A stretch of DNA of 51,965 nucleotides from Anaerolineae bacterium. Lineage in GTDB: Bacteria; Chloroflexota; Anaerolineae; Aggregatilineales; Phototrophicaceae. The notes below the pieces were generated by a model. The model was given only the letters and a program-made list of their open reading frames with translations, did no database searches and was not told where the DNA came from. Positions 1-7,390 of the stretch are shown here, piece after piece (the stretch's first letter is position 1; the number at the start of each line of letters is the position of its first letter). Both the position numbers and the translations under genes were made by a program. The stretch spans positions 1 through 51,965 of the forward strand of contig JAHDWN010000023.1 of the NCBI GenBank assembly GCA_023382675.1. The letters run 5' to 3'.

Positions 1-1140
1 ATCGGCATCGGGCAGACATCGATTGGAGAACTCTGGCAGTTCGGCCTGCGCGAGTTGGCAAGCCAGGCGCTCAAGAGCGCGTTTGAAGACGCAAGGCTCG
101 AACGGCAGCCGGACGCGCTGTTCGTCGCCAACATGCTCGCGCCGCGCGTCAGCAGCCAGGCGCATCTGGGTGCGCTGATCGCGGATTACATGGGCTGGCC
201 GGGTATCGAAGCGACGACGGTCGAGGCGGCCTGTGCCTCCGGCGGCGCGGCCTTTCAGGCAGGCGTGCGCGCCATCGCCAGCGGCATGGTCGATCTGGTG
301 GCGGTCTGCGGTGTCGAGAAGATGACAGACGCCACGCCGGACGTGACGACCGCGGCGCTGGCGACCGCCGCCGACGCCGAGTTCGAGGGCATTCACGGCG
401 CGACCTTCGTCGCTCTGAACGCACTGGTCATGCGCCGCTACATGCACGAATACGGCATTCCCCACCCGGCGTTCGGGCCGTTCAGCATCAATGCCCACGC
501 CAATGCGCGCAATAACCCGAACGCGATGTTCAAGACCCATGTGACGCAAGAATCCTACAACCGCGCGCCGATGATCGCCGATCCGATCAACCTGCTCGAT
601 AGCTCACCGATCTGCGACGGCGCGGGCGCGATCCTGCTCTGCCCGCTGGAAATGGCAAGCGATCTGAGCCAGCGCGCGCCGATTCGGGTGCTGGCAAGCG
701 CGACGGCGACGGACACCATCGGCATTGCTGACCGGCGCAACCTGCTGGCGTTGGAGGCAGGGCGTGTGAGTGCGCAGAAGGCTTATGCTCAGGCGGGCCT
801 CGCGCCGGAAGACATCGACGTGTTCGAGCTGCACGACGCCTTTTCGATCATGGCGGCGCTGAGCCTGGAGGCGGCGGGCTTTGCCGAGTATGGCAAGGGT
901 GTCGAGCTGGCGCAGGCGGGCGCGATCGCTATCGGCGGGCGTATCCCGATCTGCACGATGGGCGGGCTGAAGGGACGCGGCCACCCGGTCGGTGCGACCG
1001 GTGTTTACGAGTTGATCGACGTGATCACGCAGCTACGCGGCGAGGCGGGCGCGAATCAGGTCAAAGATGCGACAATTGGCATGGCGCAGAACATTGGCGG
1101 CACAGGCTCGACGATTGTGACGCACATTCTGGGCGCATAG
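1..1140 (+). CDS. Thiolase (SCP-x/archaeal acetyl-CoA acetyltransferase type), 5' truncated by window edge
   Basis: The frame is open from base 1, and its first residues (IGIGQTSIGELWQFGLREL) already match the N-terminal strand of SCP-x-type thiolases, so the true start lies a few codons outside the window; the internal TTG at 55 is not the start. 379 residues are visible. Thiolases form or cleave beta-ketoacyl-CoA. The nucleophilic Cys sits in VEAACASGG (codon at 232-234), followed by HDAF and GHPVGATG, which carry the two active-site His. The C-terminal motif is NIGGTGST, without the second Cys of classical thiolases, as in SCP2/archaeal forms. Such enzymes often pair with a DUF35 protein, which could lie upstream but is not visible. 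It converges on the lasso cluster. Confidence 0.9.
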   Translation: MGIGQTSIGELWQFGLRELASQALKSAFEDARLERQPDALFVANMLAPRVSSQAHLGALIADYMGWPGIEATTVEAACASGGAAFQAGVRAIASGMVDLVAVCGVEKMTDATPDVTTAALATAADAEFEGIHGATFVALNALVMRRYMHEYGIPHPAFGPFSINAHANARNNPNAMFKTHVTQESYNRAPMIADPINLLDSSPICDGAGAILLCPLEMASDLSQRAPIRVLASATATDTIGIADRRNLLALEAGRVSAQKAYAQAGLAPEDIDVFELHDAFSIMAALSLEAAGFAEYGKGVELAQAGAIAIGGRIPICTMGGLKGRGHPVGATGVYELIDVITQLRGEAGANQVKDATIGMAQNIGGTGSTIVTHILGA

Positions 1141-1199: not shown

Positions 1200-2006
1200 T
1201 TACGACTCGATTGTCTGCGCGTGGGCTTCGACGAGATCGAGCGTGGCATCGAGCTTCTCGAAGGCACGCGGATAGATCAGACGGTAGAGCGTGACCGCAT
1301 TCATTAGTTGGAGATAATCAACGGCCAGGCGACGGCGCGCATCGGCGTCGTTTTCGCTGACGATGAAGGCCTGTTTGAGCAGTGCGACGTAACCGTCTGC
1401 CGGGTTGACCGGGACAACCGCTGGGCTGGCATCGGGGGCATCGACCGCTTCCAGCAGGAAGATCGTGGACAGACGCAGCACCACATCGGGCCAGGGAAGA
1501 GGCGTAAAACTGAACGGCACTTCGCCAAAATGCTGGGCAGTGCGGGTGCGCAGCGAGATCATGCTGGGGATCATCTTCAAGAAAGCGCCGCCGTCCCGTT
1601 GGTCGAGAGCCATGACATCGTCGGTCAATTGTGCCCACCCGTGACGACGACCCATCGCGTAGGCCAGCGTTGACTTGCCTATCAAGGTTGGAGCGCAAAA
1701 AGCAACGGCGGTATGTGAGTTCCGGTGATACACGGCAGCCGCGTGCAGCACCTGAAACCCCCAGTAGTTGTATACGCGGGGCAGCCAGCGACGAGAAGCA
1801 TATTGCACCAGTGTATCGAAGTTGACGCCAATGACTGGATGATACGTGACAGAATCCTGTTCGGCGGTGAAGCGGATCGCTCCGAGTTCTGGACAGGCAA
1901 TCCAGCGGACATCGCCACAGGCACTGTAGGTGATAGTCAAAGGCGAGTCATCATCTTCAGTCCACGAAGCGATGACCTGTCCTGGTTCGTTACTTGCCCA
2001 GTCCAT
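1200..2006 (-). CDS. HPr-kinase-like serine kinase of the lasso-peptide cluster
   Basis: 268 residues, last gene of the lasso cluster, starting 27 nt after the precursor stop. It resembles the HPr kinase/phosphorylase C-terminal domain found in lasso clusters such as paeninodin, where the kinase PadeK phosphorylates the peptide. Visible motifs: LHAAAV (residues 88-92, the position of the family LHG-type motif), a P-loop-like APTLIGKST (105-113) in which Ala replaces the first Gly, and LTDD (127-130), the acidic Walker-B-like site. The N-terminal 80 residues resemble nothing I recognise. The precursor ends in Val, not in the C-terminal Ser phosphorylated in paeninodin, so the target would be an internal Ser or something else. 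Family fairly sure; activity unknown. Confidence 0.75.
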   Translation of the reverse strand: MDWASNEPGQVIASWTEDDDSPLTITYSACGDVRWIACPELGAIRFTAEQDSVTYHPVIGVNFDTLVQYASRRWLPRVYNYWGFQVLHAAAVYHRNSHTAVAFCAPTLIGKSTLAYAMGRRHGWAQLTDDVMALDQRDGGAFLKMIPSMISLRTRTAQHFGEVPFSFTPLPWPDVVLRLSTIFLLEAVDAPDASPAVVPVNPADGYVALLKQAFIVSENDADARRRLAVDYLQLMNAVTLYRLIYPRAFEKLDATLDLVEAHAQTIES

Positions 2007-2033
2007 CGAATTACGAGCCGGCCTGATTGGGAC

Positions 2034-2216
2034 CTAGACCCCCGGCATCATGCCGCTGAGGCCTTCTTGGTCGCCCGATCCGCTGGCCTTGGATCCCTGC
2101 ACAAACTCGCGCAATTTGCCAATCGACCGCAGCTCTGGAGCTGCCCACGGGCGTTTTTGTGCGAGTCGATCACTCGCAGTCACTTGTGGATTCTGTGGTC
2201 TATTCAACGTTGTCAT
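2034..2216 (-). CDS. Lasso peptide precursor
   Basis: 60 residues. The lasso leader motif YxxPxLxxxGxxxxxTxG aligns in exact register: W24, P27, L29, G33, V39 (in place of the usual Thr at -2), then G41 as core residue 1. The predicted core is GSKASGSGDQEGLSGMMPGV, with Asp49 at core position 9, allowing a Gly1-Asp9 macrolactam and an 11-residue tail. An AGGAG Shine-Dalgarno lies inside the last codons of the cyclase gene; the ATG follows the cyclase stop after 4 nt, implying translational coupling. Neighbours supply RRE, protease, cyclase and tailoring enzymes. The core contains four Ser and one Lys as possible modification sites. The call rests on motif plus context; ring size and cleavage site are inference. 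Confidence 0.85.
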   Translation of the reverse strand: MTTLNRPQNPQVTASDRLAQKRPWAAPELRSIGKLREFVQGSKASGSGDQEGLSGMMPGV

Positions 2217-2220
2217 TGCG

Positions 2221-4113
2221 TCATTCTCCTGCCAACTGGTTTTTCAACCATGTCTCTGCACTCACAACAGCATACAAGTAGGCTACCTGGTCGCGCGTAA
2301 TGCCTTGACTCGCTTTTTCTGTGATACTTAGCCTGTCGCTATTGATAATACCATATCCCGCCAGCCTGGAAGTGCCCACTTTTTCTGCGGCGGACACGAC
2401 ATATTTCTGGATTTGCTGGAAGTAAGGACGCAACTCTTCCGGTGCGTAATCTTTGACCTGCGCTTCAACCCCTGACTCCGGAAGGACACGTCGTACTACC
2501 ATACGGTTGAGACTCTTGCTGCGCCCTTCGTTGAGGAGCACCCAGGGCGATGCTTGCGCGAGCATCGCCACCAGGTCTCTATCAAAAAAAGGCATGAGAA
2601 TGCGCAGACCGGCGGAATGTGCATAGAGAAAGTCGGTCTCACAAACGCTCGACTCTGCCAGAAATCTCCACAAATAACTTTTGCCGTGCTCGTAATAGCT
2701 CGCTGGCACGCGCCCACGCGCGTCGAGTTCGGGACGTTGTATCTCGTCGTTCAAGACTCGCTGAAGCGTCTGGCGCAAAGCGGGATCTGCGCACAACCAG
2801 CCGGGTAGCTGACCGCCTAGACGCCTGATGCGGTACGCTCTGCGCAGGTTCGGAAGACAGCGCGCCCAATAGGCACCCATCATCTGGCGCGCGAACAGGC
2901 TGAGTCGCTGCGCCAGCGACCTCTGCCGCCATTTACCTTCCTGGCGCATACTCCCCAGGAACAATGTCAGTTTGGGCAGTGACAGCGAGCGCAGCACATC
3001 CGGAAAATAGCTGCTGTCCACATCCAGCCATTCGTCCCCGCCCGCGCCGCTAAAGATGCTGGTGCAGCCAGCATCGGCCATCGAGCGCAGGAAATGCGGA
3101 TATAACCCTGCCCACCACGACGTATTCGGCTCTGCGGAATGCGCTGTGTCCTCAATCGAAATCGTGACCAGATCGCGATCATCCAGGTAATCGAGAAAGC
3201 TGCTAGCCCGGTAGGGCAGCCGCAGCCGATCGGCAATCGCCCGCTGATTCCTTTGTTCGTAACTAACAGGCTCATCGGTGGTGCGCGTAAACGCGAATGC
3301 TGCAAGCGGCGCATGACCCTGCACCTGGCCGATCTGGTGCGCGATGCCGGCGATGGCTGACGAGTCAAGCCCGCCGCTAAGCAAGATACCATCCATGCCG
3401 ACGGCGAAACAGCGTGCAACTGCCTGCCGCAGCAGCGGTTCGAACTTCTCCAACACCTGCTCGTCTGGCAGGTAGGGTTCGCCATCCTTTGGCAGAGGAT
3501 TCCAGTACTCATGGATCGTGCACCTGCCGTCGACATCGGCAGCCAGATAATGAGCGTGGCGCAGCCGGTGAATCGACTCGAAGAATGTGTCATCTTGGAG
3601 CGTGAAGAAGCCGCCGACCCGCAGTGCTAGGTTGAGCCGGTTGGGAATCCGAGGAAAAGCACCAGACTCCAGCAGAGCGTTGACCGTGGGTGCAAAAAAC
3701 AGCCTGCGCCCGATCTGCCCGTAAAAGAACGGATGTCGGCTAAATACGTCGTGTCCCGCGATCAAGCGGCCACGCTGCGCATCCCACACCGCCGCCAGGT
3801 AGCCTCCGTCGAGATGGTTGAACAGATCCTCGCCCCAGCGCTCATAGGCCAGCGCGACGATTTCAACCTCCGTCAAGACTCCGCCGCTTCTGTCGAGTTC
3901 GGCTGTCCGCGCCGGTTGGTCGAAAAGATAGCCGTCAAAGATGGCGAAGTTGGCAGCTTCCGGGCCGAAAGCAAGCGTCTGGCAGCCTACCTGCAGCTGG
4001 CCAAGAGTCAGCGGGCCGTGTTGCAGCATGTCTGCCGCCGCCGAATCATTGCGGCGCGATACAGCATCCGGATCAAAACAGGCGTACCATGTCGGTAAAA
4101 GGAAGGGGGCCAT
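2221..4113 (-). CDS. Asparagine-synthetase-like lasso cyclase (macrolactam synthetase)
   Basis: About 630 residues, homologous to asparagine synthase B. The C-terminal synthetase domain has the PP-loop SGGLDSS (residues about 246-252) and SGAGGDEWLD. The N-terminal glutaminase-like domain has no Cys at position 2, so it should not hydrolyse glutamine; this is expected for lasso C proteins, which use ATP to adenylate the ring Asp/Glu and join it to the freed core N-terminus. I start at the ATG at 4113; the TTG just before it is in frame but unnecessary. It begins 35 nt after the methyltransferase gene and its stop lies 4 nt before the precursor start. It should act with the B2 peptidase and RRE protein. 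Confidence 0.88.
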   Translation of the reverse strand: MAPFLLPTWYACFDPDAVSRRNDSAAADMLQHGPLTLGQLQVGCQTLAFGPEAANFAIFDGYLFDQPARTAELDRSGGVLTEVEIVALAYERWGEDLFNHLDGGYLAAVWDAQRGRLIAGHDVFSRHPFFYGQIGRRLFFAPTVNALLESGAFPRIPNRLNLALRVGGFFTLQDDTFFESIHRLRHAHYLAADVDGRCTIHEYWNPLPKDGEPYLPDEQVLEKFEPLLRQAVARCFAVGMDGILLSGGLDSSAIAGIAHQIGQVQGHAPLAAFAFTRTTDEPVSYEQRNQRAIADRLRLPYRASSFLDYLDDRDLVTISIEDTAHSAEPNTSWWAGLYPHFLRSMADAGCTSIFSGAGGDEWLDVDSSYFPDVLRSLSLPKLTLFLGSMRQEGKWRQRSLAQRLSLFARQMMGAYWARCLPNLRRAYRIRRLGGQLPGWLCADPALRQTLQRVLNDEIQRPELDARGRVPASYYEHGKSYLWRFLAESSVCETDFLYAHSAGLRILMPFFDRDLVAMLAQASPWVLLNEGRSKSLNRMVVRRVLPESGVEAQVKDYAPEELRPYFQQIQKYVVSAAEKVGTSRLAGYGIINSDRLSITEKASQGITRDQVAYLYAVVSAETWLKNQLAGE

Positions 4114-4148
4114 CAACGGGCAGTGGGTCTTAATGATTCAGGCATGGG

Positions 4149-5270
4149 TTAATCATACCAGTCCGCATATTTGTGCACAAAGGCAAGCGCATCATCATGC
4201 GACGGCAGCGCTCCGGGATAAGCCGCTCGCAGTCGAGCTGCGACCTCTTCGAGCGCTGTTTGCCCCTCCAGCAGCGTCAGCAGCAAGCGGATCATCTGGC
4301 CTTTGCGATTGAGATTCGGCTTATAAGTCGGGTTCGTCTTTCGCAGGCTGGACGGGTCCCATGGGCGCGAAAACAGCGTCGAATGGCGGCGTTCGCCGTG
4401 TTGCGCAGTGACCATCCAGTTCCAATCCGTGTACGCGGGACGCACGAGCCGAAACGCGATCTCCTCACCACCGGCAAAGACCAACGGCGGATCAATGGGC
4501 ATGAATACGGGCGTCCAGTGTATTTCTGGCTCGTGGGGCGCGGTCGAGAGCCAGTCTGTGCCAAGCTCCATCGCAAACCAACCCATGAAACCGTGGCATT
4601 CCCCCGCGCTGTTGATCGTAAACATCACCGTCTCATCGCAGTGAATGACGTGCGCAGTGGCAAAATCGAGCGTCAGCAGCGGCTGCGGCTCAGCAAGATA
4701 CTCCGCCTGGCGCGTATCCTTCAGGCGATAGTAGGCTGTGTGGGCAGCGAACGGGCGCGCGACACTCAAATCTAGCCCCAGATGCGGCCGTGACCAGCTC
4801 GCGATTTCGCGCTGGTAGATTTCGGGCGCGCACACCGGGACGACCTCCAGACGGGCTTTGCCAGGCAGCAAACGGCCATCAGGCTTGAGATAGCGGTCGC
4901 GGGCATAGAACAGCGACGGCAGCAGATCTTCGTTGAACAGCATGTTGCCGGTGAAGACCGAGACGATCAGATCGACCGATTCAGGCAGGGTGACTTCCTC
5001 GATGCGTCCGCGCAGAAACACCATGTGCTCACTCAGCCCGTTCGCCCCGGCGATTTGCTCGGCGACGCGGATGACATCCTCTGGCTCGACACAGTAGACA
5101 CGCTTCGCGCCAAGTTGTGCTGCCAGCAGGCCATGTACGCCGATACCCGATCCCAGGTCAAGGACGACGGAAGCAGGGGTGATAGTCGTCTTGAGCGCCC
5201 GGTAGTAGGCAGTGTTGCGATGGAGATCGAGCGCCATCGACCGGTGATCAGCAATGCGGGCGTAACTCAT
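4149..5270 (-). CDS. PRMT-fold class I SAM methyltransferase in lasso cluster
   Basis: 373 residues with the layout of protein arginine methyltransferases. It has an N-terminal helix motif (SMALDLHRNTAYYRAL), SAM motif I DLGSGIG (38-44), an acidic VEP after strand 2 (61-63), a double-E-loop equivalent at 104-117, and a THW-loop-like IHWTP near 251. In PRMTs the loop reads SEWMGxxLxxE; here it is SVFTGNMLFNE, so the first catalytic Glu is Val105 while the second survives as Glu114. This predicts SAM-dependent methylation with a substrate or chemistry different from ordinary Arg methylation. The last 55 residues form a helical tail. Position between peptidase and cyclase suggests tailoring of the lasso peptide. 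The predicted core has no Arg, but has Lys3 and acidic residues. Confidence 0.82.
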   Translation of the reverse strand: MSYARIADHRSMALDLHRNTAYYRALKTTITPASVVLDLGSGIGVHGLLAAQLGAKRVYCVEPEDVIRVAEQIAGANGLSEHMVFLRGRIEEVTLPESVDLIVSVFTGNMLFNEDLLPSLFYARDRYLKPDGRLLPGKARLEVVPVCAPEIYQREIASWSRPHLGLDLSVARPFAAHTAYYRLKDTRQAEYLAEPQPLLTLDFATAHVIHCDETVMFTINSAGECHGFMGWFAMELGTDWLSTAPHEPEIHWTPVFMPIDPPLVFAGGEEIAFRLVRPAYTDWNWMVTAQHGERRHSTLFSRPWDPSSLRKTNPTYKPNLNRKGQMIRLLLTLLEGQTALEEVAARLRAAYPGALPSHDDALAFVHKYADWYD

Positions 5271-5375
5271 GGATAGTGCTATGCCTCAGGTGGGGAAACT
5301 TTGCGCCGTGTCACGCGTGATACAGAAGTACGATGACTTTCACGCTGAATGTCCATGGTATGTTCGTGCTGCCGG

Positions 5376-5834
5376 TCAGTGGACATCGGTGATCAAGCCG
5401 GGATACGGAATAAACTGGTAACGACTGCTGACATCGGTCGCGTCGTTGAGTACTTCGCCATTTTGCTCGACCCAGGCATGGGCGGTGATCCTTTCCCCTT
5501 CCTGCCGCGCGCCAAAGCGAATGACGGAATCAATGTGCTGGAGGTGCAGAATCCACCACAACAGCAGGGAGCGTTCGAAGCAGCGTGGGCAATAGATGCG
5601 TTTCCACAACCAATGCGATCCTGCATTCTCTATTCGCAGCGCCATCTCCCGCGCACGCGGTGCGGGCTGTGACGATAAGGCGGCAGCGCCAGGACTCAGC
5701 CGATGCAGCAGGGTCAAACAGCGACGATACCCTAACAAACGCAGCGCCAGCCGCATCAATACCAGCAGCGACCACAGCCCTGTATGCAGGGCGAAATTCA
5801 ATGGATTTCCCAGCCGCATGGATGGTTTTGTCAT
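5376..5834 (-). CDS. Lasso peptide biosynthesis B2 protein (transglutaminase-like leader peptidase)
   Basis: 152 residues, the usual length of stand-alone B2 proteins. It removes the leader from the lasso precursor. The papain/transglutaminase-like triad is visible: Cys85 in CFERSLLLWW (family motif CLxRS), His119 in AHAWVE and Asp131 in the following NDATD. The N-terminal 45 residues are hydrophobic and basic, perhaps membrane-associated. Its ATG overlaps the stop of the RRE gene by 4 nt (ATGA), so the two are translationally coupled, matching the obligatory B1-B2 partnership of split lasso peptidases. A 105-nt gap separates it from the methyltransferase. Confidence 0.88.
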   Translation of the reverse strand: MTKPSMRLGNPLNFALHTGLWSLLVLMRLALRLLGYRRCLTLLHRLSPGAAALSSQPAPRAREMALRIENAGSHWLWKRIYCPRCFERSLLLWWILHLQHIDSVIRFGARQEGERITAHAWVEQNGEVLNDATDVSSRYQFIPYPGLITDVH

Positions 5835-6133
5835 GAGTCTGTAACCCGCGCGATCAACCCCTGGTCAAGCAAGTCCGCCAGAAGACCTTTCAATTCGCGC
5901 TCAAGCTGTACTTCTGACACGTCGAACTCGCTTAAGAGCTGCTGCATGGCCTCGGCAATGGATATGCCCTGCGTCAGAAGCGCGACAATCTCTGCACCGG
6001 TGGCGTTCAATTGATAAACGTTTTCTGTCGTCACATGCAGCAGAAGGGCTTCCTGCCCAAACTGCTGAAGGATCACGTCACTGCCGAGCTTGTACCGAGC
6101 CGCCGGATCAAATGAATCCGTGATCTGCACCAT
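5831..6133 (-). CDS. PqqD-family RRE protein (lasso B1)
   Basis: About 100 residues with the PqqD winged-helix pattern: two N-terminal strands (YKLGSDVILQQ, ALLLHV), YQLNATGAEIVALL, and a C-terminal helical part ending LLDQGLIARV. In lasso systems this RiPP recognition element binds the YxxPxLxxxG leader and delivers it to the B2 peptidase. I prefer the ATG at 6133, with GGAG 5 nt upstream, over the GTG at 6139 that would overlap that site. A TATACT-like -10 at 6173-6178 could give this gene its own promoter, but no convincing -35 is seen. It overlaps the B2 gene by 4 nt. Confidence 0.87.
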   Translation of the reverse strand: MVQITDSFDPAARYKLGSDVILQQFGQEALLLHVTTENVYQLNATGAEIVALLTQGISIAEAMQQLLSEFDVSEVQLERELKGLLADLLDQGLIARVTDS

Positions 6134-6202
6134 CTGCACTCCATGGAAAACTATGGTGTCTACATAGTTATGAGTATATCTCGGAAGTGTTGTCCCGTGT
6201 TT

Positions 6203-7390
6203 CTAACGATGCTGGTTGTGCAGACGATGATAAGCCCACTGGCCGATCTGGCGCGCCTGCCGCCACCAGCGCACACCATAGTAGGGCCACACGCTTTGGC
6301 CGGCCGCAATCTGGTAACGATGGCGCATGTAATCGACCGTCGGTAGCAGCAGACGCCCGATCAGCCAGAGCCGCTCGCGGAAGGTCAATCGTCGCAGCAT
6401 GTCGTCGACCCTGACCACAGCAGCGCCCGTGCGCTGCAAACGTGCGAAGCGAGCCACGTCTTCTTCGGGGGCGCGGCGCCGGCGCAAAGTGTCAATGACA
6501 TCGTCTGCAAAGCGCGTACCGAATAGTTCGGAGACTTTGCGCAGGCTGTGCTCGGTTGCGAGCGCCCAGCGCAAATCGACGGCTTGCGCAATCACTGCGT
6601 CCCAATCGATGGATCGGGCGGTGATGAGTAAATGGATGTCGAGATAGTGCTTGAGCGCCGCTTCTTGATCGCCGTGCTGGAGCGCGATATGTGCGCAGAG
6701 ATAGAGCAGCAGCGCCTCTGGCGATAGAGTCAGTGAGCCATCTTCACTCGCAATCGCTTGTTCCCAGATCCACGGCGTTGGATCAACCGTTTGCCCCATG
6801 CGCGGATAGCTGCCGAGTCGATAGTGCAGCTCGACCATCATCGTGGATTGCAACCCATTGCTGAAAACGACATGATGTATCAACTTACGCATGATCGCCG
6901 GGTTGCCTGCCAGTAGCATTTCGCTTTCGTCCGCCTCGATTTTGTAGCTGAGCGTATGCAAGACGCGCACCGCGATCTCACCCTGTGAATCAGGCACCAG
7001 CAGATCGAGATCAACCATCGGGCGGCGGTAAGGTTCCGGGTAAAGCATCTGGGCGACCGACAGACCTTTGAGCCAGAGTACACGGACACCGGCATCCGCC
7101 AATGCGCGCGCAATCCGCTTTTGTTCACGCACGAGCAGCGCGTGTTCCAGGGCTGCCTGGCGCGCAGACTGCTCCAGCGCTTTCCACGTCTCTACGTCGA
7201 TGTGTGTGCGCAGGTCATATTGGCAGGCGATGTAGTGCAGCATCGGCGCAAGCCCCTGCGCCTCGGCCAGAGCGTAGAGCGTCGGCCAGTCTGCGCTGGC
7301 GACACTGTGGCTTGCCTGCGGTTGGCTGATGAGCCGACAGAGTAGGTGGGCAGTGCCCTCTGCTGTTCGTGGGGGTTGTGGATTGGACAT
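6203..7390 (-). CDS. Nucleotidyltransferase family protein (NTP_transf_5-like), lasso cluster
   Basis: 395 residues, upstream-most gene of the cluster. The signature of this nucleotidyltransferase family is visible: LWLKGLSVAQMLYPEPYRRP then MVDLDLLVP, giving Lys108-Gly109 and the metal-binding pair Asp127 and Asp129. Proteins of this family recur in RiPP clusters that also carry a PqqD protein, B2 peptidase and HPr-like kinase; their reaction on the peptide is not well settled. It precedes the RRE gene by about 70 nt. It may act on the peptide together with the kinase, or serve in self-protection; the sequence does not decide. Confidence 0.78.
   Translation of the reverse strand: MSNPQPPRTAEGTAHLLCRLISQPQASHSVASADWPTLYALAEAQGLAPMLHYIACQYDLRTHIDVETWKALEQSARQAALEHALLVREQKRIARALADAGVRVLWLKGLSVAQMLYPEPYRRPMVDLDLLVPDSQGEIAVRVLHTLSYKIEADESEMLLAGNPAIMRKLIHHVVFSNGLQSTMMVELHYRLGSYPRMGQTVDPTPWIWEQAIASEDGSLTLSPEALLLYLCAHIALQHGDQEAALKHYLDIHLLITARSIDWDAVIAQAVDLRWALATEHSLRKVSELFGTRFADDVIDTLRRRRAPEEDVARFARLQRTGAAVVRVDDMLRRLTFRERLWLIGRLLLPTVDYMRHRYQIAAGQSVWPYYGVRWWRQARQIGQWAYHRLHNQHR

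Follow-up and report, generated by a model that had tools for sequence, protein, structure and literature searches.

The window, by which we mean the whole stretch of 51,965 nucleotides analysed here, comes from an Anaerolineae bacterium of the Phototrophicaceae (assembly GCA_023382675.1, contig JAHDWN010000023.1) and starts where its contig starts. Open reading frame (ORF) calls and profile searches identified a run of seven genes within about 6.2 kb, all on the minus strand, in the order nucleotidyltransferase (NT), discrete RiPP recognition element (RRE; RiPP, ribosomally synthesized and post-translationally modified peptide), leader peptidase B2, a methyltransferase (MT) resembling the protein arginine methyltransferases (PRMTs), asparagine synthetase-like cyclase (C), precursor peptide (A) and HPr kinase-like kinase (K) (Table 1). 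All seven genes that an original prediction, made from the DNA alone, had placed on one strand at 1200-7390 are thus present; its heading counted four accessory enzymes, and the DNA shows three, as did its own text. We consider it probable that this is a lasso-peptide operon in which three tailoring enzymes serve the phosphorylation and methylation of a lasso precursor. The genes, their motifs and the fold of MT support the predicted combination of kinase, nucleotidyltransferase and PRMT-fold enzyme in a lasso cluster, and with it a probably modified lasso peptide; the word "complete" applies to the processing set and not to export, for which no adjoining gene is present.

The processing genes are those expected of a lasso system. 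The first PDB matches of the RRE are TbiB1 (3.3e-6) and TfuB1 (4.3e-6), both RREs of lasso systems. B2 has the pair C85 and H119, conserved across 10 relatives, and, by comparison with the Cys-His-Asp spacing of McjB, also Asp131, 12 residues past the histidine, a residue that is not conserved in L020 and L021 (L numbers denote the loci collected here). The cyclase retains S247 to S252 with the SGGxDS motif, E287, D361 and K534, and departs from conserved residues at many places in its N-terminal part. As to the tailoring enzymes, NT keeps K108, G109, R123, D127 and D129 in comparison with 14 relatives. The kinase has no Pfam match at 0.001 and reaches 24.4 bits against NCBIfam HprK_rel_A, whose cut-off is 200; aligned with 11 relatives, it finds HPr kinase as its first PDB match, and G110, K111, S112, T113, D129 and D130 (GKST, DD) are kept. 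An HPr-like kinase gene, the mark of phosphorylated paeninodin-type clusters, is therefore part of the run. All seven reading frames are intact and tightly packed, with four bases between C and A.

The product of the precursor gene divides into a leader, MTTLNRPQNPQVTASDRLAQKRPWAAPELRSIGKLREFVQ, and a predicted core, GSKASGSGDQEGLSGMMPGV, the position of the cut being deduced from the register and Asp9. The leader is of the WxxPxL type (WAAPEL, with W in place of Y), with Gly at -8 and Val at -2; together with Asp9, the predicted ring acceptor, it gives the YxxPxL-type leader and the acid at core positions 7-9 by which lasso precursors are recognised. Based on these sequence features, the product of the cluster is very probably a lasso peptide. 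Lys3 is the sole basic residue of the core, which has no arginine; the four serines (Ser2, 5, 7 and 14) are all internal, the C-terminal residue being valine where paeninodin-type cores have serine, and positions 6-9 read GSGD and not DTAD as in the lassimiditides. For the unmodified lasso form the calculated [M+H]+ is 1833.81. Among the small ORFs of the window, the precursor gene is the only one with the strict leader motif and an acid at core 7-9; when the whole window was shuffled 60 times by dinucleotides, the combination came up five times, and 18 unrelated loci (310,982 bases) did not contain it.

Table 1. Features of the cluster in window coordinates
Feature	Position	Strand	Basis or remark
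Kinase, HPr kinase-like	1200..2006	-	alignment finds HPr kinase in PDB, 2.2e-8
Precursor peptide A, 60 residues	2034..2216	-	leader motif; 41% identity over 39 aa with L133 precursor
Predicted core GSKASGSGDQEGLSGMMPGV, ring Gly1 to Asp9	2037..2096	-	register and Asp9
Predicted leader, residues 1-40, motif WAAPELRSIGKLREFVQ	2097..2216	-	motif; cleavage site inferred
Cyclase C, Asn-synthetase-like	2221..4116	-	PF00733 5.9e-23; SGGxDS 247-252 kept
Shine-Dalgarno AGGAG	2226..2230	-	9 bases 5' of precursor ATG
PRMT-like methyltransferase, whole gene	4149..5270	-	PRMT_C PF22528 5e-10; CARM1 6.6e-37; AlphaFold model
MT C-terminal three-helix domain, residues 300-373	4152..4373	-	RRE-like by weak evidence
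Codon of Val105, place of first double-E glutamate in PRMTs	4956..4958	-	CARM1 alignment; Glu114 kept
B2 leader peptidase	5376..5834	-	PF13471 1.5e-16; NF033537 66.3 bits, cut-off 33; overlaps RRE gene by 4 bases
Discrete RRE (B1/PqqD-like), predicted leader binder	5831..6139	-	PF05402 1.1e-13
Nucleotidyltransferase (NTP_transf_5), first gene of run	6203..7390	-	PF14907 E 2e-47

The PRMT-like methyltransferase

The window MT is a true PRMT homologue. A PDB sequence search returned, besides CARM1, also PRMT1, 2, 3, 6 and 8, and the AlphaFold model (pLDDT 87.5) matches PRMT8 over residues 1-299 with Z 32.7 and a root-mean-square deviation (rmsd) of 2.0 over 296 residues. The double-E and THW loops have established functions in PRMTs. 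Like PRMT1, CARM1 and PRMT8, MT has the PRMT fold, the glycines of the S-adenosylmethionine (SAM) motif, the second double-E glutamate (Glu114) and the HW of the THW loop; unlike them it is bacterial, stands in a RiPP operon, carries an extra C-terminal domain of three helices and has lost the first double-E glutamate, since SEPMGYMLFNE of CARM1 corresponds to SVFTGNMLFNE in the window, with Val105 in place of that residue. The enzymes had been predicted to have recognisable active-site motifs; most of these are indeed kept, the exceptions being this glutamate and two glycines of the kinase P-loop. Because the first glutamate is lost and the core contains no arginine, ordinary arginine methylation by MT is unlikely, and with that glutamate gone the enzyme may have no activity or a different one.

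Three loop types occur beside lasso genes, as judged from 36 aligned MT rows, some of which are not lasso-linked. The majority type beside lasso genes is SDLRG-like, with Asp for the first glutamate; L132, L135 and L137 have SETIGNYGAEE with both glutamates; and S[VA]xTGNxxxxED is shared by the window, L129, L130 and L133, with the first glutamate replaced by Val (window and L133) or Ala (L129 and L130). Both glutamates are also found in the MT of L205 and in several PRMT-like proteins outside lasso clusters, and the MTs of L192, L195 and L204 show a further Asp loop type. The window enzyme groups with L133, L129 and L130 with support 100/100 in a tree of the PRMT part (53 rows) whose deep forks are weak; the closest other MT is 46-49% identical, and all four members of the subfamily have T107, G108, N109, E114 and D115. 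Lasso linkage requires 8 changes on this tree, at least 3 of them forced, as compared to an average of 11.0 in shuffles, 7 of 500 being as low.

The C-terminal domain of about 70 residues is present in 34 of 39 lasso-adjacent MTs and in none of 12 others (Fisher 3.9e-8, ignoring kinship). This count covers full, strong MT rows, and an MT was taken as lasso-adjacent here if at least one of RRE, B2, C and K lay no more than 9 kb away, so that the status of L066, L068, L191 and L195 depends on one or two genes; set aside were L057, L078, L128, L140 and L083 (cut, fragment or masked) and ten MT rows that did not reach 1e-30, among them L146, which lies beside a B2. The five lasso-adjacent MTs without the domain are the second MTs of L130 and L192, that of the double-E cluster L205, and those of L206 and L208. 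We infer that residues 300-373 are a reduced RRE-like docking domain. When the domain was cut from eight MTs, PqqD was the first Pfam match in five (0.0025-0.047) and an NCBIfam match in six. Modelled alone, the domain gave as first Foldseek row TbiB1, the RRE of a lasso system, and as first rows of a VIA comparison PqqD 3g2b (Z 5.5, rmsd 1.9 over 48 residues) and TfuB1 (Z 5.3, rmsd 2.3 over 53). Several points weaken this assignment: the profile matches are all below cut-off and Pfam gave none for three of the eight; hhalign against an RRE profile reached a probability of 8.8%; the Foldseek row, with E 2.3, is not significant; the VIA scores are level with those of unrelated proteins (Z 5.0-5.3), and no listed fold match is significant. 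The model consists of three helices only and has no three-stranded sheet as in the winged-helix RRE fold.

Related clusters and their core peptides

Apart from Pfam, NCBIfam and the PDB, all profiles used were built here from the collected loci. In total, 42 MT rows from 40 loci lie beside lasso genes, that is, no farther than 9 kb from two or more other kinds of lasso gene. Conservation of the enzymes without the precursor gene, which had been named as grounds for rejecting the prediction, is not the rule, since for 36 of the 42 rows a leader-motif gene lies no more than 9 kb away; it may apply to L129 (2274-17237) and L130 (2157-15770), which together with L133 make up the three other clusters that have the MT subtype of the window. 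L129 and L130 possess RRE, B2, C, kinase and NT, each with a 715-residue ORF behind C, and a search for a lasso precursor found none in either.

All seven parts are united in 14 loci (the window, L021, L061, L063, L065, L067, L073, L075, L082, L128, L133, L156, L189 and L208) from Chloroflexota, Acidobacteriota, Gemmatimonadota and Gammaproteobacteria. The commonest gene order is RRE-B2-C-A-K-MT-NT, which differs from that of the window, while L133 (Acidobacteriota) has RRE-B2-MT-(RRE)-C-A-K, the order of the window plus a second RRE between MT and C, with NT about 5 kb away. MT, C, K and A of L133 are 46%, 36%, 36% and 41% identical to those of the window. This recurrence rules out that the combination is a one-off; the original prediction had called it unusual, and it is so only in the literature searched.

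Full-length MT relatives turned up in G005, G014 and G034, besides the window's own genome, when 101 genomes of the family were searched, and in G285 among 400 genomes of the phylum. Of 396 Acidobacteriota genomes, 29 have an MT relative at E 1e-30, whether or not it is linked to lasso genes. A collection of species representatives gave 33 loci with an MT relative, 23 of them strong, and four of these had already been counted. The parts of L061 were confirmed by Pfam with the exception of the kinase, which had no Pfam match. Since the MT set was gathered mostly by MT searches, such rates are not population rates; when sampling started from B2, MT was present in 9 of 35 Acidobacteriota loci, taken from 37 of 38 places (the 38th is L061, which has MT), and in 3 of 13 loci of the window's family. 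Six rows were dropped: L069, L071, L080, L081 and L190 as the same loci as L021, L020, L057, L022 and L066, respectively, and also L058. A scan of viral contigs returned no MT relatives. Plasmid relatives were rejected as cases of the same system, as the annotated neighbourhoods of four of six plasmid matches have no lasso genes, and so was a partial MT match in G007, which is not in any lasso cluster.

Precursors were sought with the pattern aromatic-x-x-P-x-hydrophobic, Gly at -8 and T/V/I/A at -2, on the same strand and beside C or K; these leader features are imposed by the pattern and are no finding, the acid position alone having been left free. Of 50 genes obtained, the one in L125 was excluded as spurious, leaving 49 cores, 37 near an MT and 12 not; the distance rule overlooked precursors in L068 and L075 and one of two in L082. 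Asp stands at position 9 in 25 cores and at 8 in 8, Glu at 8 in 7, and Asp occurs at most six times at each position of 1-15 other than 8, 9 and 10. Position -2 is Thr in 42 leaders, Val in six (the window, L022, L055, L133, L156 and L157) and Ile in one. Seven cores (L065, L070, L072, L083, L144, L206 and L208) have Asp at position 10 of the shared register; they begin with Thr, Ser, Ala or Val, and may form 10-residue rings or be cleaved one residue later.

Core composition varies with MT type. The double-E MTs of L132 (9824-10999), L135 (9757-10932), L137 (9611-10849) and L205 (from 8188) stand beside five cores in four clusters, each with two to five Arg and no Lys, as exemplified by ASGTGFRVDRALRTSRASR. 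Among the 31 cores beside other MT types, 22 have no Arg and none has more than two (Mann-Whitney p 3.5e-5); the remaining core of the 37, that of L128, belongs to neither group as its MT is cut. L132, L135 and L137 are near relatives in the tree, so that there are roughly two independent double-E cases. Judged from sequence, these clusters make a good case for true peptidyl-arginine methylation. Beside Asp-type MTs, Lys is present in 22 of 29 cores. Taken alone, neither residue separates cores with and without a nearby MT: Lys is found in 25/37 versus 8/12 (p 1) and Arg in 14/37 versus 6/12 (p 0.51), the latter group coming from nine loci, of which L055 and L144 are on contigs shorter than 4 kb whose MT may lie past the end, and L147 belongs to a genome with an MT elsewhere (L193). 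Met occurs in 30/37 versus 1/12 cores, kinship ignored; as methyl acceptor it was rejected, because seven of the 37 MT-adjacent cores lack it and the rows are related. Gly1 is found in 10/37 versus 9/12 cores, again ignoring kinship.

Predicted pathway and alternative readings

Lasso clusters with both a kinase and a nucleotidyltransferase are already known, and the added PRMT-like MT is undescribed in the literature searched. Among the closest known systems is the bsf cluster of Bradymonas sediminis, which, in the accessible part of its description (PMC10368454), also has a discrete RRE, B2, C, an HPr-like kinase and a nucleotidyltransferase; BsfK acts on core Ser3 with the help of the RRE, and leader position -2 is Ile in bsf and Val in the window, neither being Thr, in keeping with the Ile/Val described there for phosphorylated lasso precursors. 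In contrast to the window, bsf has an ABC exporter, a Gly1-Asp8 ring and no methyltransferase among the genes listed in that part (PMC10368454). The paeninodin and pseudomycoidin clusters share the kinase, and pseudomycoidin also the nucleotidyltransferase, but their phosphate is on a C-terminal Ser, and the part of the source available to us does not mention a PRMT-like enzyme for them (PMC8498205). Methyltransferases are likewise present in the lassomycin/StspM and lassimiditide clusters; there, according to the accessible parts of the sources, methylation is on carboxyl groups, and the lassimiditide enzymes are homologues of protein isoaspartate methyltransferase (PIMT) and not PRMT-like (PMC8498205, PMC13001092, PMC13352647). 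In the literature searched, outside which most subscription papers lie, we found no PRMT-like MT for lasso peptides, nor did a RiPP precursor with an arginine N-methyltransferase turn up.

In the pathway that we propose, the RRE would hold the leader while the kinase phosphorylates a core serine, Ser2, 5, 7 or 14; it would not be the paeninodin site, because the C-terminal residue is Val. The nucleotidyltransferase would then add to the phosphate installed by the kinase, and the PRMT-fold enzyme, perhaps docked by its own RRE-like domain, would methylate the core. B2 would cleave after Gln40, and C would close the ring between Gly1 and the side chain of Asp9, the remaining 11 residues forming the tail for threading. 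It is likely that MT acts on the lasso peptide. Lys3, as the only basic residue of the core, is our first guess for the acceptor, a doubtful one that is further weakened because BLAST aligns it with no Lys of the L133 precursor. Tentatively, and with no great confidence, we put forward a widespread class of lasso tailoring enzymes: PRMT-fold peptide methyltransferases with their own RRE-like leader-docking domain and at least three active-site types matched to the core, i.e. double-E with Arg-bearing, Lys-free cores, the Asp type with mostly Lys-containing cores and the Val/Glu type of the window with Lys3, the window enzyme having been re-aimed from arginine to another acceptor. To our knowledge, tailored lasso peptides are few. 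If this is true, a PRMT-fold family tied to lasso clusters in several phyla would extend the chemistry of lasso methylation, which in the accessible sources is on carboxylates, its small, genetically encoded substrates would allow testing how the double-E loop sets specificity in PRMTs, and a leader-guided peptide methyltransferase would be at hand for engineering.

Several findings weigh against the proposed operon and its reactions, in addition to the loss of the double-E glutamate and the two clusters without a detectable precursor. The P-loop of the kinase has A105 and L108 in place of glycines, even though it still fits the P-loop pattern [AG]xxxxGK[ST], and at 268 residues the protein is shorter than its relatives. 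In the shared register, core positions 6-10 of the L133 precursor include no acid; by eye, its Asp would reach position 9 only with a cut four residues further on, and BLAST pairs the L133 and window precursors differently. Finally, no dedicated exporter was found either next to the cluster or among ten larger genes checked at 9.9-27.3 kb.

It is unlikely, though it is the strongest of the alternatives, that MT methylates a carboxylate rather than a nitrogen, either at the C terminus (the case of lassomycin) or on an Asp (that of the aspartimide-forming lassimiditides). The lasso methylations named in the accessible parts of the literature are all on carboxylates (PMC8498205, PMC13001092, PMC13352647), and three of the 31 cores beside MTs without an intact double-E (L064, L077 and L193) contain neither Lys nor Arg; a basic residue is therefore not the acceptor everywhere. 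Against this, the aspartimide enzymes are PIMT homologues by the same sources while that of the window is a PRMT, and its core lacks the DTAD motif. Slightly less likely again is a catalytically dead MT that serves as a docking or scaffold subunit, the product being phosphorylated and unmethylated. Dead PRMT relatives can act as partner subunits, as does the trypanosome PRMT1 prozyme, and Val or Ala at the first double-E position as well as a possible RRE-like domain would suit such a role; however, the enzyme retains the glycines of its SAM motif, Glu114 and, in the THW loop, HW, and the five invariant loop residues of the subfamily argue for a retained function.

We regard it as improbable that the cluster is decaying and makes nothing. 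The distance to the nearest other MT, no close copy having been met, the atypical P-loop, the missing adjoining exporter and the many departures of C could be signs of decay, but the seven frames are intact and packed, the precursor has a good ribosome-binding site, and L133, from another phylum, retains most of the order and recognisable sequence. Least probable of all is that the enzymes make a RiPP other than a threaded lasso. Such a reuse of RRE, B2 and an Asn-synthetase-like protein is conceivable, no lasso-type precursor was found with these enzymes in L129 and L130, and the acid of L133 is out of register; against it, the window has a leader motif and an Asp9 typical of lasso precursors, and its RRE matches lasso-system RREs first. 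The preferred reading remains a lasso operon with phosphorylation and methylation.

The cluster is followed downstream by a convergent thiolase-like gene (55-1140, plus strand) and preceded upstream by genes for an M20 peptidase and a Cys/Met-metabolism enzyme; among the ten larger genes are those of an ABC system of the branched-chain amino-acid type and genes for a cation ATPase and a histidine kinase. Some of the other clusters have peculiarities of their own. Sulfotransferase-like genes lie within kinase/MT clusters in L022 (1212-2057; Pfam 3.5e-28), which carries two kinases, and, by an N-terminal motif only, in L129 (7699-8610) and L130 (7555-8463). Methionine runs end the cores of L062 (8324-8506; MMMMMMMMP) and L079 (1316-1513; MMTMMMMP), and the core of L077 (6672-6806; ASGLGDMND) apparently stops at the acceptor Asp9, with no tail left for threading. 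Cysteines are found in the cores of leader-motif genes in L192 (from 9196) and L194 (from 6889); that of L192, TCGITTKATGNMLRVCL, has two Cys and no acid, which hints at another ring chemistry.

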